From assembly GCA_022843465.1 (NCBI GenBank), contig JALHNO010000006.1:124001-188000 (forward strand): DNA of 64,000 nucleotides, read 5' to 3'. Shown here in pieces: positions 53,625 through 62,439 of the stretch. Made by a program: the position numbers and the translations under genes. The stretch comes from Pseudomonadota bacterium (lineage in GTDB: Bacteria; Pseudomonadota; Gammaproteobacteria; Xanthomonadales; Ahniellaceae). Position 1 is the first letter of the stretch, and each line of letters opens with the position of its first letter. A model generated the notes under the pieces. That model was not told the origin of the DNA. It worked only from the letters and a program-made list of their open reading frames with translations, and did no database searches.

Positions 53625-53771
53625 GGTCCGTTCCTTGATTTCTTCGATGGTGGTCGGCGCAGTCCCGCGCCAGCTGACACCTGATCGCGCTGCCGCTACC
53701 TTAGGCAATCAGGGCTGATCGGCTTGCGCCAGCAATCAATCAGCCCGCTGTCTTTCCAGGAGAAAGCGTGC

Positions 53772-54965
53772 ATGGATCGTTCGCTGCTCGAAAACATTAC
53801 CACCACCGATGGCAAGAGCGCTGCGCGTCTGCTCAGCGAGGAATCCGACGCCCGCATCGCGGAATTGCTGAGTCTGATGCATCCCGGCGCCGCGGTCGAA
53901 ATCCTCGATCACTTTCCCGACGCCAGACGCCAGAGCATTGCCGCCGCCGCGCCCAAGAATGGCGCGCAACTCTGGCTGCTCGATCATCAGTTCGACGAAG
54001 GTTCGGTCGGTCGGTTGATGGAGCGTGCGCTCGCGGTGTTTCGCCCCGAGACCACAGTTCAGCAGGTGATCGATTCGCTGCGCGATCTGATCCGCAACAC
54101 CTTCGTCGTCTACGTGTTTGTTACCGACAGCGAGGGCAAGCTGGTCGGTGTGGTCGCATTTCGCGAGTTGTTGTTCGCGCGCAAGGATCAGGCGCTTGCC
54201 GAGGTGATGATCCGCAGTCCGTTCTCGTTGCGCCCGGAAGCCGAGCTGGTCGATGCCATGCGTGAAGTCGTGACCCGCCACTACCCGGCGTACCCGGTGT
54301 GCGATGGCGAGGGTCGCCTGCTCGGTCTGGTGCGCGGTCAGGTGCTGTTCCAGCAGCAGGCGTTCGAGATCTCGGCGCAGGCCGGATCGATGGTCGGTGT
54401 CGAGAAGGAAGAGCGCATCAGCACGCCCTGGCTGACCAGCTTCAAGTTCCGGCATCCCTGGCTGCAATTGAATCTGGTCACCGCATTTATCGCGGCCGGC
54501 GTGGTCGGCTACTTTCAGGACGCGGTCAATCAGATCGTGCTGCTTGCAGTGTTCTTGCCGGTGCTGTCCGGGCAGTGCAGCAATACTGGCTGCCAGACGC
54601 TGGCGGTCACGCTGCGCGGCATGACCCTGGGCGAACTCAAACCGGGTCAGGCCCGCCGCGTCGTATTCAAGGAAGCCTGGCTGGGCTGGTGGAACGGGCT
54701 GATCGTCGGTGTCGTGGCTGCGATCGGCATGTACGCGATGGCGACCATGCAGAAGCATCCTGGGGCCTTGACCCTGGCCGGCATCACCGCGTTCTCGATG
54801 GCGGTGAGCTGCATGATGTCCGGCGCCGCCGGCAGCCTGATTCCGCTCGGCATGAAGCGCATGGGGGCCGATCCGGCCACCGCCTCAGGCATCTTCCTGA
54901 GCACGGCGACCGATGTGGTCAGCATGGGCGTCTTTCTGGGGCTGGCGACCTGGTTGCTGCTGTGA
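53772..54965 (+). CDS. mgtE: MgtE-family magnesium transporter with shortened N-domain
   Basis: A 397-residue magnesium channel/transporter. A short helical N-domain (about residues 1-75) precedes a CBS pair at about 75-200 (FVVYVFVTDSEGKLVGVVAF and HYPAYPVCDGEGRLLGLVRG). A five-helix membrane domain runs from about 225 to the end. The membrane part carries SGQCSNTGCQTLAVTLRG, corresponding to the family G-N-x-G-x-Q signature, and DPATASGIFLSTATDVV with the pore aspartates. Usual MgtE proteins are about 450 residues, so the N-domain is reduced. AGGAGAAAG precedes the chosen ATG. Confidence 0.9.
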   Translation: MDRSLLENITTTDGKSAARLLSEESDARIAELLSLMHPGAAVEILDHFPDARRQSIAAAAPKNGAQLWLLDHQFDEGSVGRLMERALAVFRPETTVQQVIDSLRDLIRNTFVVYVFVTDSEGKLVGVVAFRELLFARKDQALAEVMIRSPFSLRPEAELVDAMREVVTRHYPAYPVCDGEGRLLGLVRGQVLFQQQAFEISAQAGSMVGVEKEERISTPWLTSFKFRHPWLQLNLVTAFIAAGVVGYFQDAVNQIVLLAVFLPVLSGQCSNTGCQTLAVTLRGMTLGELKPGQARRVVFKEAWLGWWNGLIVGVVAAIGMYAMATMQKHPGALTLAGITAFSMAVSCMMSGAAGSLIPLGMKRMGADPATASGIFLSTATDVVSMGVFLGLATWLLL

Positions 54966-55055
54966 TGGCCGCCCGTCGATAGTCAGGCGTTGGGCACAGT
55001 CGCGCCGATTTCAGCGCGACCCTGCGAGCGTGTTGCAGTATCGGGGCTGCGCTGC

Positions 55056-57470
55056 CTATTCGAACCCGTTTTCGAAAATCTGCGGCAGCCCCGACTGCGC
55101 CGCGCGGCAGGCCGGTCCGGCGGATTCGAGACGGATATTGTCGATCCACCAGCCGTCACGAACCTGGCTGACATCCGAACTCAGGCGGAAGCGCACGCGT
55201 GCGGTCGGCTGATTGTCCAGTTGCGGCAGGGCGATCGATTCGTGCTTCCAGGCGTTGTCGCCGTCGCAGCGAAATACAAAACTGGACCAGTTGGTGCCTG
55301 CAGCATTGGTCGCGTATTCGACATGACCAAAATCGTAGGTCGCCTCGGTGACGCAGCGGTGGTCGAATTCCAGGCGCACGCCGTCGAGGCCGGAGAAATC
55401 CCGCGCTGGTGAAGTCAGCGACACGTTCGTGTTGTTGCTGTAGTTGCCGGTTGGACTATCGCTCCAGAAGGTCGTACTGGCGCCATTGATGCCGATGCCG
55501 GTCTGCGCGCCCCACGGTGCCTGAGCAGTCCAGCCCGGGTTGCTCCCCTGGACGTCATCGACGAAGGCATTGCAGGTCGGCAGCATGTTGATATTGCGCA
55601 CGCTGGATTGGCCGGCCGTCAGCGTGATGCCGCCGACGGTCTCATCGAGAAATCCAGCTCTGCGCGCGGTGACGCTGACAGTCGCCGGCAGACTGCGATA
55701 GCTGTAGCTGCCATCAGCTGCGCTGCTCAGATTGTCGCTGCCGATGCTCAGCGTCGCCACCAGGGGGCTCGAGCTGATCGCATGGCGCACGCTGCCGCTC
55801 AGGATTCCGACGCTAGCCGGATCCACCAGGGTGAAAAATGCTGCGTTTGGCGCGCCGGCTGCCGCGGCATCGCTGGCCTGCACATAGAGCAGATGTTTGC
55901 CCAGGGCCAGGCCAGTGGTCGACAGAGAACCGCTCACTGCTTCGACGGCGCTGTTGAAGCTGCCGTCAGTGGCCGTCAGTGCCATCGCAACGGCGCCAGC
56001 CTGCCAGGGCACCACATCGAAGTAGGCATTGGCCGCCGCGATGTTCTGCGTGGCTTGGGTACCATTGCTGTTGTTGAAGCGACTGTCGTCGGCGACCGCC
56101 GTGACCTCGATTGCTTCACCGGGGAACGGCAGATTGGGACTGATCTGGATCGCGCGCGCGTCCGGTCCGGACGGCAGTTGATACGGCGCATGCAGTACGC
56201 GCGCGGCGTACTTCAGCATTTCCAGATTGTCGGGAAGGATTTCAGCGTCGAAGTTCGCACAGCTGGCCTGGAAGCTTCCGCCGCCAAGTTCGATCGTCAG
56301 CGCGGGCACCCCGAGCGAAGCGTAGGCGTTGTCATCGGATGCGCCGTCGGCGGGCAGGCTGTTGGACTGTTCGGGGCTGTAGCCATTGAACCAGGCCAGG
56401 CGGCGTCCGAGCGTGACCAGTTCGGTGTTGTTGCCGGTGGCGGGATTGCCGGGTCCGCCGGTCATGCCCCAGGGCCATAGCACCAGGTTTGCCACGCTGT
56501 GGATGTCCATGAACATGCCACGCGTATCCATCGCAGCCGGCGTCGTCAGATCACTGGTGGAGGGCGCGCCAGGGCGGCGATCGGGAAAGATGCTGGTGAT
56601 GTAATTGACGATCGCCTGGTTCTCGGGCTCGGAACCTGCGCTCAGGCCGCGATAGGTTTCAGCGGTCGTCGATCCGGACGAGCCACCAAACGCGCCCCAG
56701 CCAAACGGGTAGTTGCGATTCAGGTCGACCCCGATTTGAGTCCCTGAACCGGCGCCTTGAAAATGTCGATTTTTTCGCTGATTCGTGTTGACGGTTTCGA
56801 TGTACAGCCGCCCATCGGGATTGGCCTGCAGCAGCAGATGGAACTCGTTGTGGTCTACCAGCCAGGTCGCATTCGGGTCGCTGCCGTAGTTTTCCAGCAG
56901 CCAGCGCGCGAACGCCGTGTTGAGCGGTGCCGTGGCGAATTCGCGGGCGTGCACGGCACTCATCGCAAATAATTTGGGCTTGTCCGCAACGATGGCCGAA
57001 TTGGTGATCTTCAGTACGAACATGTCGAAGCCGGGGTTGCCGCCGGCATCGATCTTCTCCCAGCTGTCGCCGATATCGAGCTTGCTGGCAAGGGTGGGAT
57101 AACTCGCGACCAGACTGTCCATCAGGGCATAGGTTTCCGCTACGGTCGGGTAGCAGGGGAAGCCCGGGATCGTCTTGGCCAGCATCGCATCGCGCTGGGC
57201 GAGTTCGGCAGAGTGGACGCTGTCGAAGCGGGCGCGAATGCCCTGCTTGCCGATCCAGGCCCAGTCTTCGTCGCTGGCTTCGAGGATCATGTCGCCGGTT
57301 TTCTGGTCGCGTATGTAGTGATCGAATCGCTGACCCAACAGTTGCCGCTCGTGGTCTGATTGCGGGTTGACCCGGATTGCGATGTTGGCGGCGAGCACTT
57401 GGCCACAGAGGCTGGACACAGCAAACATCAAGGCAAGGCGAGGCAAGCGCGTCGTGAGTCGTGAGGGCAT
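55056..57470 (-). CDS. Secreted M14-family zinc carboxypeptidase with C-terminal beta domains
   Basis: An 804-residue exported metallopeptidase. A signal peptide ends around residue 27 (CGQVLA before ANIAIRV). The zinc and catalytic residues of carboxypeptidase A are present: H174 and E177 in VHAREFATAP, N251-R252 in DLNRNYPFGWG, H324 in MDIHSVANL and E394 in ALTIELGGG. After about residue 440 come beta-rich regions, including a CarboxypepD-regulatory-like segment (GILSGSVRHAISSSPLVATL). A carbohydrate-binding-like or MAM-like domain ends in WIDNIRLES. The last residues are QIFENGFE, a short tail like those of many exported Xanthomonadales proteins. The ATG at 57470 is used; a TTG at 57494 is possible. 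Confidence 0.9.
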   Translation of the reverse strand: MPSRLTTRLPRLALMFAVSSLCGQVLAANIAIRVNPQSDHERQLLGQRFDHYIRDQKTGDMILEASDEDWAWIGKQGIRARFDSVHSAELAQRDAMLAKTIPGFPCYPTVAETYALMDSLVASYPTLASKLDIGDSWEKIDAGGNPGFDMFVLKITNSAIVADKPKLFAMSAVHAREFATAPLNTAFARWLLENYGSDPNATWLVDHNEFHLLLQANPDGRLYIETVNTNQRKNRHFQGAGSGTQIGVDLNRNYPFGWGAFGGSSGSTTAETYRGLSAGSEPENQAIVNYITSIFPDRRPGAPSTSDLTTPAAMDTRGMFMDIHSVANLVLWPWGMTGGPGNPATGNNTELVTLGRRLAWFNGYSPEQSNSLPADGASDDNAYASLGVPALTIELGGGSFQASCANFDAEILPDNLEMLKYAARVLHAPYQLPSGPDARAIQISPNLPFPGEAIEVTAVADDSRFNNSNGTQATQNIAAANAYFDVVPWQAGAVAMALTATDGSFNSAVEAVSGSLSTTGLALGKHLLYVQASDAAAAGAPNAAFFTLVDPASVGILSGSVRHAISSSPLVATLSIGSDNLSSAADGSYSYRSLPATVSVTARRAGFLDETVGGITLTAGQSSVRNINMLPTCNAFVDDVQGSNPGWTAQAPWGAQTGIGINGASTTFWSDSPTGNYSNNTNVSLTSPARDFSGLDGVRLEFDHRCVTEATYDFGHVEYATNAAGTNWSSFVFRCDGDNAWKHESIALPQLDNQPTARVRFRLSSDVSQVRDGWWIDNIRLESAGPACRAAQSGLPQIFENGFE

Positions 57471-57617
57471 GCGAGGATCCGTGACAGGGTTCAATCGCGC
57501 ATTCTAACGGCGAATACCGGGTCGCGCTGCTTAGGCTCCAGTCGGTGATCGCAGACATCGGGTACAGCGACCATCTGCGGATGTTGCGCTGCGGCGTGCT
57601 GTTGCGCTGCCCTCGCC

Positions 57618-57697
57618 TAGAATGCACGAGCCTCGGCTCCGGCCGCGAGGGGAGGGCAACCCGCCTGTGATCTCTGATCACGGCGGGTTTTTTCTTT
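57618..57697 (+). ncRNA. Candidate small RNA or attenuated leader upstream of glnE
   Basis: TAGAAT at 57618-57623 could be a -10 box. It is followed by CCTCG/CGAGG inverted sequence (57631-57650) and then a complete intrinsic terminator (57658-57697). A transcript of roughly 65-70 nt would be made of two hairpins with GGAGGG between them. No plus-strand gene precedes it, and no good -35 box is visible. It could be a small RNA or a premature-termination leader of glnE. Confidence 0.4.
57658..57697 (+). terminator. Strong intrinsic terminator ahead of glnE
   Basis: AACCCGCC (57658-57665) pairs with GGCGGGTT (57682-57689). After a one-base bulge GTGATC (57667-57672) pairs with GATCAC (57676-57681) around a TCT loop. 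TTTTCTTT follows. The T tract exists only in the plus direction. Upstream on this strand there is no gene for more than 2.5 kb, because the carboxypeptidase is on the minus strand. Confidence 0.88.
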
Positions 57698-57766
57698 GCG
57701 GTCCGGCCGCGTATTGGGATCGCTGCGACTTGGTTCCGGATCCTTGCCATCTGCGAAACTGGTCGC

Positions 57767-60577
57767 ATGCAAAAACGCCAAATTTCCGCAGCCACCCATC
57801 CCGATCTCGACACCTGGCTCGATGAACAGGTGACGCAATTCCGCGTCCGCGCCGAACTCGCGCCCGTCGATCCGCGATCAAGTGATCGCGACGTCCAGCT
57901 GCTGCGGCATGCCTTTTTGGCCAGCAGTTTTTTCGCCGAGGAGGCCCGCCGGCGACCGCTTGAGATCGCCAAGTTGCTGGCAGCGCCTGCACAGTTGCCC
58001 GAGTGGCAGGCGCAGGCCGATGAAGCAGTGGAAGCCTTTGCCCTGCGACTGCGGAAATTCCGTCGGCTCTGCAGTGTCGCGCTGATCCTGCGTGATCTTG
58101 CCGGTATCGATGCAGTGGCAGACACCTTGCGGCTGTCCAGTCGTATCGCCGAAACCTGTATCGCCGCGGCGCTTGCCCAGGCAGAAGTCCAGCTGGCACA
58201 GAGATTCGGCGTACCGCGTTCCCACGAAGGTGTGATCCAGCAGTTGGTCGTGATCGCGATGGGCAAGCTCGGTGGCGGTGAATTGAATTTCTCCTCCGAT
58301 GTCGATCTGATTCTGGCGTTTCCGGAGTCGGGCCACAGCGATGGCGCGCGCGCGCTGGACAACGAGGAATATTTCACGCGACTGGGTCAGCGTCTGGCGC
58401 AACTGCTCGCGGATGTCAGTGATGAAGGGCTGGTGCTGCGCGTCGACTACCGGCTGCGCCCCTACGGCAACTCCGGTCGGGTTGCACTCTCGTTCACTGC
58501 GATGGAACAGTACTACCAGCGCGAGGGCCGGGACTGGGAACGCTATGCCTGGATCAAGGCGCGACCGGTCGCCGGTGACCTGGAGGCCGGTCGCCGGCTG
58601 ATCGAGATGCTGCGGCCGTTCGTGTATCGACGCTATCTCGATTTCACCGCGATCGAGGGCCTGCGCGATCTCAAGGGCCGGATCGATCTCGAGGTCGATC
58701 GCCAGGACCTGGCGGAGAATCTGAAACTGGGGCCGGGCGGCATCCGTGAGCTCGAATTTGCCGTGCAACTGGCGCAGTTGATCCGCGGTGGCCGTGAGGT
58801 TGCGCTGCGCTGCCCGGGCTTTCTGGACGCACTGGCCGCATTGCAGGGCGGCGGCCAGTTCGAGACGGAAATGGCGGTCCGGGTGCGCACGCTTTACCTG
58901 TTTCTCCGACATATCGAGAACCGGGTGCAGATGTATGCGGACGAGCAGACGCACGCCCTGCCCGGTGATCCGGAGGATGCGCTGCGGGTCGCGCTCGCCC
59001 TCGGCTTTCCAGATCTGCCGGCACTGCAGCTGGTGATCGATGAGGTACGCGGTGAAGTGCAGGAACTGTTCACGCAGACACTGGACGCTCCGGATCGTCC
59101 CCGGCGCGTGGACTCGGGTGGACCGGAGGGTGCGGCGAGTCTGGATCTGCCGCAGTTCTCGGCAGAAGTCCAGGAGGCGACCACCCTGCTGCTGAACAGT
59201 CTGCCGGTGCGTCGCCTGGATGCGCGGGCGCGCAAGCGCTTCGAGCGCGCCCTGCCGTTGTTGATGCTGGCGGCGCGCAAGACCAAGGCACCCGATACCG
59301 CCGCGCTGCGCCTGCAACGTTTGCTGCATGCCATCGCGGGGCGACCGAGTTATCTGGCCTTGCTGGCGGAACGACGCGGTGCCCGCGAGCGCGTGGCCCA
59401 TGTCTTCTCTCGCAGCGCGTTTCTGGCCGAGCGGGTGATCGCGCATCCCCTGCTGCTGGATGATCTGCTCGATTCGCGTGTGGATGCCGAAGTCATGCAG
59501 CCGGCTGACCTGGATCGGCTGTTCACCGCCAGCCTGGCGCGGGTTACCTCGGGCGATCCGGAGCTGGAACTCGCCGCCCTCCACGAGGCGCGCCAGAGCG
59601 CCGTGTTCCGTACCGCGCTGGCCTGGTCGAATCGGCGGCAGACCGCAGGTTTCACCGCTGCCATGCTGGCTGAAATTGCCGAGCGCTGCGTGACCCGGGT
59701 GCTGGCGTTGGCGCGTCGCGATCTGGAACTGATGCATGGGGATTTTCCGGAAGGACTGCTGGTGCTTGCGTATGGGAGCTTTGGTGGCGGCGAACTTGGC
59801 TTCGGCTCGGACCTGGATCTGGTATTCGTGTTCGATCCGGATGTTGCCAATACGCTGAGTACGGGCGCCCGTGCGCTTGAGGGTGGCCGCTACGTGGCGC
59901 GGCTTTCGCAGCGCGTATTGCACTGGCTGAGTACGCCCACGCATGCCGGACCGTTGTTCGAGACCGATGTCCGTCTGCGCCCCGACGGCGCCAAGGGCTT
60001 GCTGGTTTCTCCGCTGAGCGGCTTTCGCGAGTATCAATTGCAGCGCGCCTGGGTGTGGGAACATCAGGCTCTGGTCCGCGCACGCGCGGTGGCCGGTCCG
60101 GCCCGGCTTGCGGAAGAATTCCGTGCGGTCCGTGATGAAGTGCTGCGACGCGAACGCAAGCTTGATGAGGTCCAGTCCGAGGTCGGCCGCATGCGCAGCC
60201 GCTGGCGCCAGGAGCTCGATCGCAGCAGCACCACGCTGTTCGATATCAAGCAGGGCCGCGGCGGTCTCGTCGATATCGAGTTTCTGTTGCAGGGACTGGT
60301 GCTGGCGCATGCGCAGCGTCTGCCCGAGTTGACGATGACCGGCTCCAGCGCGCGTCTGATCGACAGCCTGGCCGCCTGCGGACTGATCGCAGCGGATGCT
60401 GCCGATCTGTTGCTGCGTGCCCACGAACACTGGTTGGGCCGGGCGCTTGACTGTGCCCTTGATGCTTCGCCGCGTGTGCTGGTGCGCGATGCCCAGACCG
60501 ATCAGCTGGCGGCGCAGGTGTACGCCCTGTTCGAGCGGTCAGGGTTTGCCGATCGGCCTTCAGGAAGTTCAGAATAG
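57767..60577 (+). CDS. glnE: Bifunctional glutamine synthetase adenylyltransferase/adenylyl-removing enzyme
   Basis: A 936-residue enzyme that adenylylates glutamine synthetase when nitrogen is plentiful and removes AMP when it is scarce. Both nucleotidyltransferase domains are intact. The N-terminal deadenylylase has IAMGKLGGGELNFSSDVDL near residue 165. The C-terminal adenylylase has AYGSFGGGELGFGSDLDLVF near 669. DIKQGRGGLVDIEFLLQGL follows in the C-terminal part. The ATG at 57767 has only a weak ribosome site. The terminator 70 bp upstream may limit its expression. Confidence 0.96.
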   Translation: MQKRQISAATHPDLDTWLDEQVTQFRVRAELAPVDPRSSDRDVQLLRHAFLASSFFAEEARRRPLEIAKLLAAPAQLPEWQAQADEAVEAFALRLRKFRRLCSVALILRDLAGIDAVADTLRLSSRIAETCIAAALAQAEVQLAQRFGVPRSHEGVIQQLVVIAMGKLGGGELNFSSDVDLILAFPESGHSDGARALDNEEYFTRLGQRLAQLLADVSDEGLVLRVDYRLRPYGNSGRVALSFTAMEQYYQREGRDWERYAWIKARPVAGDLEAGRRLIEMLRPFVYRRYLDFTAIEGLRDLKGRIDLEVDRQDLAENLKLGPGGIRELEFAVQLAQLIRGGREVALRCPGFLDALAALQGGGQFETEMAVRVRTLYLFLRHIENRVQMYADEQTHALPGDPEDALRVALALGFPDLPALQLVIDEVRGEVQELFTQTLDAPDRPRRVDSGGPEGAASLDLPQFSAEVQEATTLLLNSLPVRRLDARARKRFERALPLLMLAARKTKAPDTAALRLQRLLHAIAGRPSYLALLAERRGARERVAHVFSRSAFLAERVIAHPLLLDDLLDSRVDAEVMQPADLDRLFTASLARVTSGDPELELAALHEARQSAVFRTALAWSNRRQTAGFTAAMLAEIAERCVTRVLALARRDLELMHGDFPEGLLVLAYGSFGGGELGFGSDLDLVFVFDPDVANTLSTGARALEGGRYVARLSQRVLHWLSTPTHAGPLFETDVRLRPDGAKGLLVSPLSGFREYQLQRAWVWEHQALVRARAVAGPARLAEEFRAVRDEVLRRERKLDEVQSEVGRMRSRWRQELDRSSTTLFDIKQGRGGLVDIEFLLQGLVLAHAQRLPELTMTGSSARLIDSLAACGLIAADAADLLLRAHEHWLGRALDCALDASPRVLVRDAQTDQLAAQVYALFERSGFADRPSGSSE

Positions 60578-60688
60578 GTCAGTAGTGGCGACGGTTCCCC
60601 GGTCAGCGTCGCATGCCGGCAGGCGAGTTGCAGGTGGCCAGACCCAACGTAGTGCGGCGACGAGTCCGGCAACGTGTTCGCAGGATGC

Positions 60689-61651
60689 TCAGCCGCGTCC
60701 CGAGTCGCGCCAGAGCTGAAGTACACGCTGCGCGGTTTCCGCCGTCTCATTGAGACCTGGTCGCGGCGCGGCTGGGTCAGACCAGTCGGACAGCAGCTGG
60801 CGCTGGCGCAGTGCTGCGTCGAACAGACCGAGTTTTCCCTGTGGCGGTGCCAGTGCAAAGCTGACCACAGAGACACCGACGGCACAGGCCTCGCTCAGCA
60901 TGTTCACCGAATCGGCAGTGACGACAATGCGATCGGAACAGGCGAGCGCCGCGCGGTAGGGATTGGCGCCGTCGCGGGCATCGATCCACACGCGCGCGTC
61001 CAGCGACTGTCCGAGTGCGCGCAGTTGCGGCTGCCAGGGCGCAGGTGTGCGCCGTGAACCGCACAGCAGGATGCTGCCACCCTCACGACGGCGCAAGGCC
61101 CGCAATTTTTCTGCCAGCGCTGCAATCGAATCCGGATCGAGCGGCGCATCGCGATGCGGTCCGCCGATCATCACGCTGGTCAGTGGCCGGTCCAGTTGTG
61201 CGATCAGTGGCATCGACTGGCGGGCGGTATGCAGCCAGGCCGCATTGACAGCATTGAGTGCACCGATGGTGCTCAGCACATTGCCGCCGCGCAGGGCATC
61301 GTGTGCCGGCGTGATCACCACATCGAACTCAGCCGGATCGATGCGCGGATCGAGAATCTGTACGGTGAATACGCTGCCGTTGGCGCCGCGTTTGAGCGCG
61401 CGCAGTGCAAGTGCTGACTGGCGTCCGCAACCGATCGCGATATCGGGCCAGCCGGCTTCCTCGGGCAGAGGCAGTCGCGCCAGGGCGCCTGGCACGCCGC
61501 GTGGCGAAGTCCAGCGCCAGGGCGCCGGAAAGCGCAGCCGGACATGGTGCGCCGCGCCGCCCATCGCAGCGGCGAGCGCGTCAGCCTGGTGGAAATTGCC
61601 GGCGCGTTCGTCGGTAAGGGTCCAGATTCTGGGGCTCGAAGGACGATCCAT
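60689..61651 (-). CDS. ELM1/DUF1022-family protein
   Basis: A 320-residue protein similar to the mitochondrial-fission ELM1 family found in many proteobacteria. Motifs are RIWTLTDERAGNFHQADALA at the N-terminus, DIAIGCGRQSALALRALKR and TVQILDPRI, and the C-terminal SDRIVVTADSVNMLSEACAV followed by PQGKLGLFDAALR. The fold is probably glycosyltransferase-B-like; function in bacteria is unknown. The start is taken at ATG 61651 because the family begins here; an upstream GTG-type extension to 61723 is rejected. Confidence 0.87.
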   Translation of the reverse strand: MDRPSSPRIWTLTDERAGNFHQADALAAAMGGAAHHVRLRFPAPWRWTSPRGVPGALARLPLPEEAGWPDIAIGCGRQSALALRALKRGANGSVFTVQILDPRIDPAEFDVVITPAHDALRGGNVLSTIGALNAVNAAWLHTARQSMPLIAQLDRPLTSVMIGGPHRDAPLDPDSIAALAEKLRALRRREGGSILLCGSRRTPAPWQPQLRALGQSLDARVWIDARDGANPYRAALACSDRIVVTADSVNMLSEACAVGVSVVSFALAPPQGKLGLFDAALRQRQLLSDWSDPAAPRPGLNETAETAQRVLQLWRDSGRG

Positions 61652-61833
61652 GAACCGAAGGGTAGCGCGCACCGGCACGCTCCGGGAGTGAGCACAGCCC
61701 GACCGGATGCGGCGCCGGCGCATGCTGATGCGCTAAGGTTGCGCCGCGTCCGCCGGCGGCTTGCGAACCTGCATGCCGGGTTTGCAGCGCTGGCGCTGCC
61801 GCGATTCCCCTTCATTCGTTAGGCTTCCGACCC

Positions 61834-62439
61834 ATGAATACACCCCTCGACAGCGCCGCGCTCGATCAGCTTTTCCTGGAGGCGCGCACATTTTCTGCGA
61901 ACCCCGACCCCTGGCAGCCGCGCACGGTCCCGGAGGATCTGCTGCGTCAGGTCTGGGATCTCGCCCGTATGGGTCCGACTGCATCCAACTGTCTGCCGGC
62001 GCGTATCGCCTTCGTCCGCAGTGGCGAGGCCAAGGCGCGGCTGGCGCCCCTGCTCGATGAGGGCAATCGCCCGAAGACGCTGGCGGCACCGGTGACCGCG
62101 ATCCTGGCGATGGACATGAAGTTCTATGAACTGCTGCCAAGACTGTTTCCACACGTCGACGCCCGTGCCTGGTTCGCCGACAAGACCGAGGCCGAGCTGT
62201 TGCCGGTGACCCTGCGCAACAGCAGCCTGCAGGGTGCCTATCTGATCCTGGCGGCGCGGGCTCTGGGGCTGGACTGCGCACCGATGTCCGGCTTTGACAG
62301 CAAGGGCATTGATGCCGAGTTTTTCCCGGGAACTTCCTGGCGTTCGAATTTTCTGATCAATATCGGGTATGGCCGCCGCGAGACCCTGCGTCCGCGCGGA
62401 CCGCGCCTGGCGTTTGACGAAGCCTGCCAGCTGTTGTGA
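61834..62439 (+). CDS. Nitroreductase-family protein, probably malonic semialdehyde reductase (RutE/HadB-like)
   Basis: A 201-residue flavin-dependent reductase of the nitroreductase family. The segments ARTFSANPDPWQPRTVPEDL, WDLARMGPTASNCLPARIAF and NSSLQGAYLILAARALGLDC followed by APMSGFDSKGIDAEFFPG match the RutE/HadB subgroup, which reduces malonic semialdehyde to 3-hydroxypropionate. No other rut genes are adjacent, so the physiological substrate here is open. The stop overlaps nothing; a YceI-family gene follows 41 bp later. Confidence 0.85.
   Translation: MNTPLDSAALDQLFLEARTFSANPDPWQPRTVPEDLLRQVWDLARMGPTASNCLPARIAFVRSGEAKARLAPLLDEGNRPKTLAAPVTAILAMDMKFYELLPRLFPHVDARAWFADKTEAELLPVTLRNSSLQGAYLILAARALGLDCAPMSGFDSKGIDAEFFPGTSWRSNFLINIGYGRRETLRPRGPRLAFDEACQLL

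Follow-up and report, generated by a model that had tools for sequence, protein, structure and literature searches.

In Sinorhizobium meliloti, the 77-nt small RNA MmgR (alpha-r8 family) has a promoter that is bound by PhaR/AniA, which represses it (PMC12542648). PhaR recognizes the motif WNWD2NYGCRNYGCRNH2WNW, and it binds to and represses the mmgR gene; mutating the palindrome abolishes its binding to the promoter (PMC12542648). In the published model, PHB granules sequester PhaR (PMC12542648). MmgR is tied to both PHB and nitrogen status (PMC12542648, PMC7143759), and it is an Hfq-dependent RNA with three stem-loops; a loop has an anti-Shine-Dalgarno motif (PMC7143759). In Xanthomonas, the C-rich loops of another small RNA, sX13, pair with GGGG motifs (PMC3771888).

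We analyzed a 64,000-nt stretch of DNA ("the window") from a gammaproteobacterium that belongs to the same order as Xanthomonas and Lysobacter. We think it quite likely that positions 57582-57693 of the window are a free-standing small RNA gene that is repressed by PhaR, is linked to PHB, and encodes an RNA that works in trans by means of the conserved core (GGGGAGGG), and that this gene represents an order-wide family that is outside of Rfam. Like MmgR, the predicted RNA is short, has a PhaR-type site in its promoter, and has a link to PHB (predicted, in our case). Unlike MmgR as the cited articles describe it, the present RNA has two hairpins, comes from Gammaproteobacteria, and has a G-rich core that resembles a Shine-Dalgarno sequence; the C-rich anti-Shine-Dalgarno loop motif of MmgR and the alpha-r8 family was not found, as the core is GGGGAGGG, and we saw no sign of homology to the MmgR described there. 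Similarly, sX13 is a small structured RNA from the same order and part of a system of pairing between G-rich and C-rich sequences, but the C-rich loops are in sX13 as described, while the present RNA would provide the GGGG side. It is possible that the present RNA and sX13 are related as sponge and target. The other close comparison is to phasin genes that are controlled by PhaR. The identical operator palindrome is present at the phasin promoters of this order, but phasin is a granule protein whose genes often have two sites, while the RNA gene has one site before it.

The locus upstream of glnE

The features of the locus are listed in Table 1. The initial annotation of this region had noted a strong intrinsic terminator on the plus strand before glnE, with nothing on that strand for over 2.5 kb before it. 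Both statements are correct: the terminator ends 73 bp before the ATG of glnE, and the nearest preceding gene on the plus strand (MgtE-type, 53724-54965) ends 2.6 kb 5' of the terminator. The terminator's stem is formed by CCCGCC.TGTGATC and GATCACGGCGGG and is followed by six T. The same annotation had suggested an RNA with two hairpins and a single-stranded GGAGGG. This stretch is conserved (see below), but it does not look clearly single-stranded: in the predicted window RNA, the G residues of the core are mostly paired (unpaired probability of 0.05-0.26, versus 0.72 for the A). Among the 8 RNAs that we folded, the core is clearly exposed in just one (L050), where it is mostly open.

Table 1. 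Predicted and annotated features around the small RNA gene (window coordinates)
Feature	Position	Strand	Evidence
M14 zinc carboxypeptidase gene, divergent neighbor	55056-57494	-	PF00246
PhaR-type operator box TGTTGCGCTGCGGCG (predicted)	57582-57596	+	Sequence, box statistics, phasin promoters, motif published in PMC12542648
Candidate -35, GTGCTG (weak; first base shared with the box; 16-nt spacer)	57596-57601	+	Inferred from alignment of relatives
Candidate -10, TAGAAT	57618-57623	+	Sequence; equal position in relatives
Competing hairpin, GAGC CUCG GCUC	57629-57640	+	Alternative to the 5' hairpin at 57634-57645
Predicted small RNA, about 64-67 nt	57630-57693	+	Covariance-model match at 57634-57695 (L044 1501-1562); 5' end predicted
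5' hairpin, CGGC UCCG GCCG (consensus register)	57634-57645	+	Hand-given structure on alignment A8
Conserved core GGGGAGGG	57649-57656	+	Alignments A6 and A8, pattern scans
Intrinsic terminator	57659-57693	+	Sequence, fold stability, helix 2 of the family structure
glnE, downstream neighbor, outside the RNA gene	57767-60577	+	PF03710, NF008292

A generic scan for terminators across 8 kb (54000-62000) found no enrichment (2 terminators versus 4.7 expected), and a strict scan for sigma-70 promoters in this region did not report a promoter at the candidate -35 and -10. The case therefore rests on the stability of the fold and on conservation. The predicted fold of 57600-57695 has z = -4.8, and none of 200 shuffled sequences was as stable.

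By its match to the consensus, the predicted promoter is weak, and we infer that transcription would start within 57628-57632, near 57630. The relatives share TGYTGC..YGC..CKTG directly 5' of a -35-like hexamer. In most members of families f1, f11, and f12, this hexamer is followed by 16-17 nt and then a -10-like hexamer; the spacing is less clear in families f2 and f3. For example, two loci (L047 and L048) have TTGCAC at the -35 position, and relatives have TAGAAT, TATGTT, or TAGTAT at the -10 position.

The core includes a GGA, so the RNA might instead be a decoy that titrates CsrA/RsmA. Known decoys of this kind carry several GGA motifs. Only one GGA is found in 57630-57693, and we consider a decoy to be very unlikely.

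The divergent M14 peptidase ends with ...QIFENGFE, and its counterpart by another element (L039 near 1090) has ...LLGNGFEPVGR. Perhaps secreted proteins share a signal of this kind at the C-terminus.

Conservation and structure of the RNA family

When we used a 101-bp stretch as the query for a DNA search of 61 genomes, we obtained five clear matches, from the window genome and four relatives (G001, G006, G008, and G043); the last of these belongs to another family than the window genome. Reading the sequence by anchoring on glnE gave three more carriers (G007, G005, and G004). A covariance model built from five sequences (R1) had matches in 61 of 299 genomes from the order (E ≤ 0.05), and many of the weak matches are plain CCCGC terminators. 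A second model (R2) was built from 39 members and covers the RNA alone. (R1 was built without any use of the upstream box, but a box pattern had recruited 17 of the 39 sequences that went into R2.) R2 had matches in 117 of the 299 genomes (E ≤ 0.01), including false positives, and it gained family f2, which we take as Xanthomonadaceae. Nineteen covariance matches that lack the core were set aside as false positives.

We also searched 321 genomes from the class (E ≤ 1e-4). The genomes with matches were three members of the order and four others; we examined five loci in those four genomes, and all of them lack the core. Among the genomes searched, the covariance model finds the RNA within this order only. 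A pattern scan that left the terminator out of the pattern gave 31 loci; Dokdonella immobilis, Mizugakiibacter sediminis, Rudaea, and Pseudolysobacter are among the named carriers. At 23 of these loci, a terminator directly follows the core. The other 8 loci have no terminator after the core and are mostly from unrelated phyla, and we discarded them.

At the gathering score, Rfam 15 identifies only tRNAs in the window, and other matches to RNA families are below the threshold. Within the main texts of open-licence articles in PMC, we found no description of this RNA. For example, the main text of a screen for small RNAs in Xcc (PMC7694677) mentions neither glnE nor PhaR. The family is new: it is found across the order of Xanthomonas and Lysobacter and is absent from Rfam.

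In the alignment of 39 members, the two hairpins have standard pairs in 86.6% of cells, as compared to 76.8% in shuffles and 36-44.5% if the structure is slid along the alignment. We specified this structure manually, based on a single member, and this favors it in the pairing figure; relatedness was not corrected for. The covariation score was 0.291 versus 0.151 in shuffles, and none of 500 shuffles reached the observed values. Two-sided changes occur at 12 of the 17 pairs. The terminator helix (helix 2) is paired in 90.5% of cells, with two-sided changes at 8 of its 12 pairs. The 5' hairpin has two-sided changes at 4 of its 5 pairs, but just 75% of its cells are paired, and RNAalifold recovers the terminator alone from the alignment, without predicting the 5' hairpin.

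A conserved terminator, or another DNA element, might be present here without any functional transcript. We consider this highly improbable, as the terminator is conserved together with the box, the core, and a 5' hairpin that shows compensatory changes, and no gene feeds into the terminator. The conserved core GGGGAGGG is the obvious candidate for the working part of the RNA, although its exposure varies.

In family f2 (L132-L138 and L140-L147), the RNA segment CAUCCCGACGUGGGGGAGGGAGCA hardly varies between genera and is better conserved than the rest of the transcript. This segment is therefore a good seed for a target search.

Gene context

The initial annotation had offered two explanations for the terminator: a small RNA, or a leader that stops most transcription of glnE. 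In the second case, transcription would start before 57634, would mostly stop at the terminator, and would sometimes read through to form the glnE mRNA. Some of the gene context fits a leader. At 41 of 62 loci with the element, glnE follows in the same direction; it was never in the other orientation. The gap is about 73 bp in the window and is at most 371 bp at 34 of these 41 loci. (One of the short-gap loci extrapolates to -118, with uncertainty about the start codon.) The place before glnE is an old one.

However, a cis-acting leader should always be co-directional with and adjoin its gene, and this is the case for no more than those 41 of the 62 loci. Even among those 41, the gap is over 1 kb at 7. 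At the Dokdonella-type loci, 2.0-2.4 kb separates the RNA from glnE, and at the two long-gap loci for which we read the intervening gene (L095 and L103), it encodes 613 amino acids on the opposite strand (a PF00884 sulfatase in L103). At the other 21 loci, there is no glnE in the DNA examined, although this extends for less than 500 bp downstream at two of them (L046 and L089) and for only 1.5 kb at another two, which are of the Dokdonella type (L058 and L067). Families besides Dokdonella's have the RNA at places away from glnE: neither at G002 (L052) nor at the f11 loci does the DNA examined contain glnE. At L048 and L052, the large ORF that comes next runs in the opposite direction. The loci without glnE and the Dokdonella gap gene indicate that the RNA gene is autonomous, and we consider a glnE leader improbable.

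The small-RNA explanation, by contrast, is borne out by the conservation of the promoter region, the core, and the terminator across many genera, and the proposed comparison to related genomes showed that the RNA is kept with its terminator across the order. The suggested role in nitrogen control is supported only indirectly: the conserved box points to PhaR, which regulates PHB and hence carbon storage, and glnE is a frequent neighbor.

We noticed a few other features of the neighborhoods. At Dokdonella-type loci (L103:3094-4935, L095:2162-4003, and L058:1624-3063), the small RNA is directly followed by a sulfatase-type gene, which is encoded on the other strand and lies before glnE wherever the sequence reaches glnE. 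By our reading of the translations alone, the neighbors in f11 appear to be an amidohydrolase (L045), aspartokinase-like proteins (L047 and L048), and an arginine-deiminase-like protein (L053). In G001, a contig break that is filled with short repeats of the CCCTCTCTCCCGGCCTC type separates the element from glnE (L002 1800-2037 and the start of the reverse-complemented L032).

The PhaR-type box and a probable link to PHB

The window box has two mismatches to the palindrome TGYTGCRNYGCARCA, with an exact match to the core YTGCRNYGC, and TTGCGCTGCGG within the box fits the PhaR operator core NYGCRNYGCRN, as expected for a member of the PhaR regulon. We scored the box for 44 loci from R1 or R2 that have the core. 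(L045 was left out because the end of the contig cuts the locus.) Just upstream of the core GGGGAGG, 42 of the 44 loci have a box within two mismatches of TGYTGCRNYGCARCA, while dinucleotide shuffles gave 0.58 of 44. The best match has one mismatch at 9 loci, two at 33 loci, and three at 2 loci. None of the 19 covariance matches without the core has a box with two or fewer mismatches.

Is the palindrome a PhaR site in this order? The window genome encodes PhaR (PF07879 at G000:C4:97925-98107), and it has the exact palindrome at 4 sites. One of these (C14:143560-143574) precedes a phasin gene (PF09361), 87 bp before the start of the phasin domain. More broadly, we scanned 260 bp upstream of the best 30 of the order's phasin matches: 20 of these 30 genes have the exact palindrome, and 24 have it within one mismatch, versus about 0.1 of 30 in shuffles. 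Because the palindrome lies upstream of phasin genes and also matches the S. meliloti motif, we take it to be the PhaR site of this order.

The phasin promoter of the window genome (G000, L115 1500-1600) has a second site, TTGCAATGCGGCGTCAC, about 90 bp further upstream, which resembles the box of the small RNA. Exact palindromes are also found 5' of an ORF for an esterase-like secreted protein (G000 C8:118421, L114) and of a FimV-like ORF (C21:76933, L116); these two could be further targets of PhaR. The window genome contains a class III PHA synthase but lacks class I (PF07167), for which 3 of 41 genomes were positive. In three relatives, PhaR-type palindromes with at most one mismatch are found near class III PHA synthase genes (L205 946, L206 941, and L208 750).

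Across the order, PhaR (PF07879) is present in 201 of 299 genomes. A whole-genome search for the box plus the core found the pattern in 102 of the 299 genomes (probably including some chance matches, such as G003, G009, and G237, which were left in the count) versus 3 for a reversed control. The pattern was found in 102 of the 201 genomes with PhaR and in none of the 98 genomes without it (P = 1.8e-23, Fisher exact test, not corrected for ancestry, which confounds this association). Since the other 99 genomes with PhaR lack the pattern, PhaR does not need the RNA in order to function. Six genomes that were scored as lacking PhaR have matches to R2. For example, G055 carries a genuine element (L048), and its assembly is 84% complete; the match in G066 has neither the core nor the box.

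If the small RNA is real, the box might still be a site for another regulator, or a plain GC-rich element of the promoter. Indeed, in most of the families, the second half-site runs into the -35 and reads GCG or GCN instead of GCA. But the box matches the palindrome of the phasin promoters, it has just one mismatch at the f11 loci, and all 102 of the genomes with the pattern have PhaR, so we give this alternative a low probability.

We return to a small RNA gene that is repressed by PhaR. This reading builds on what was computed: the conservation of the RNA family, its structure, the box, and the association with PhaR. Without PHB, PhaR would occupy the box, directly 5' of the -35, and would keep the RNA off (we infer repression rather than activation). 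Once PHB granules form, PhaR would be sequestered, and the RNA would be made alongside phasin. It would be about 65 nt long, would end at the strong terminator, and would act in trans through the G-rich core GGGGAGGG. Since a PhaR-type site is in the promoter of a small RNA, the RNA probably connects the storage of carbon with other parts of metabolism.

We considered phasin as a direct target of the RNA and found this unlikely: the duplex energies of the core with phasin start regions were no better than with shuffled ones (-13.6 versus -14.7), and 29 of 30 start regions lack a complement to the core. The RNA might still influence phasin expression indirectly. In the neighborhoods of phaC and phaE, there was no consistent complement to the core, with 4 complement matches across 11 loci.

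A more tentative scenario, which we think is rather doubtful, is that an order-wide RNA family that reports the status of PHB granules through PhaR arose here independently of the rhizobial MmgR; that its core pairs with C-rich sites, possibly sponging sX13-like small RNAs with C-rich loops; and that its place by glnE couples carbon storage to the control of glutamine synthetase. If this is true, then the coupling of carbon storage to glutamine synthetase would extend to plant-associated and environmental relatives. In the literature that we examined, the small RNAs controlled by PhaR amount so far to one alphaproteobacterial case, MmgR. If a different class has a second and unrelated RNA under PhaR control, this would suggest that the combination of a PHB sensor and a small RNA is a recurrent design. 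The set of genomes, along with the operator and the core as defined here, offers a ready means to find the targets.
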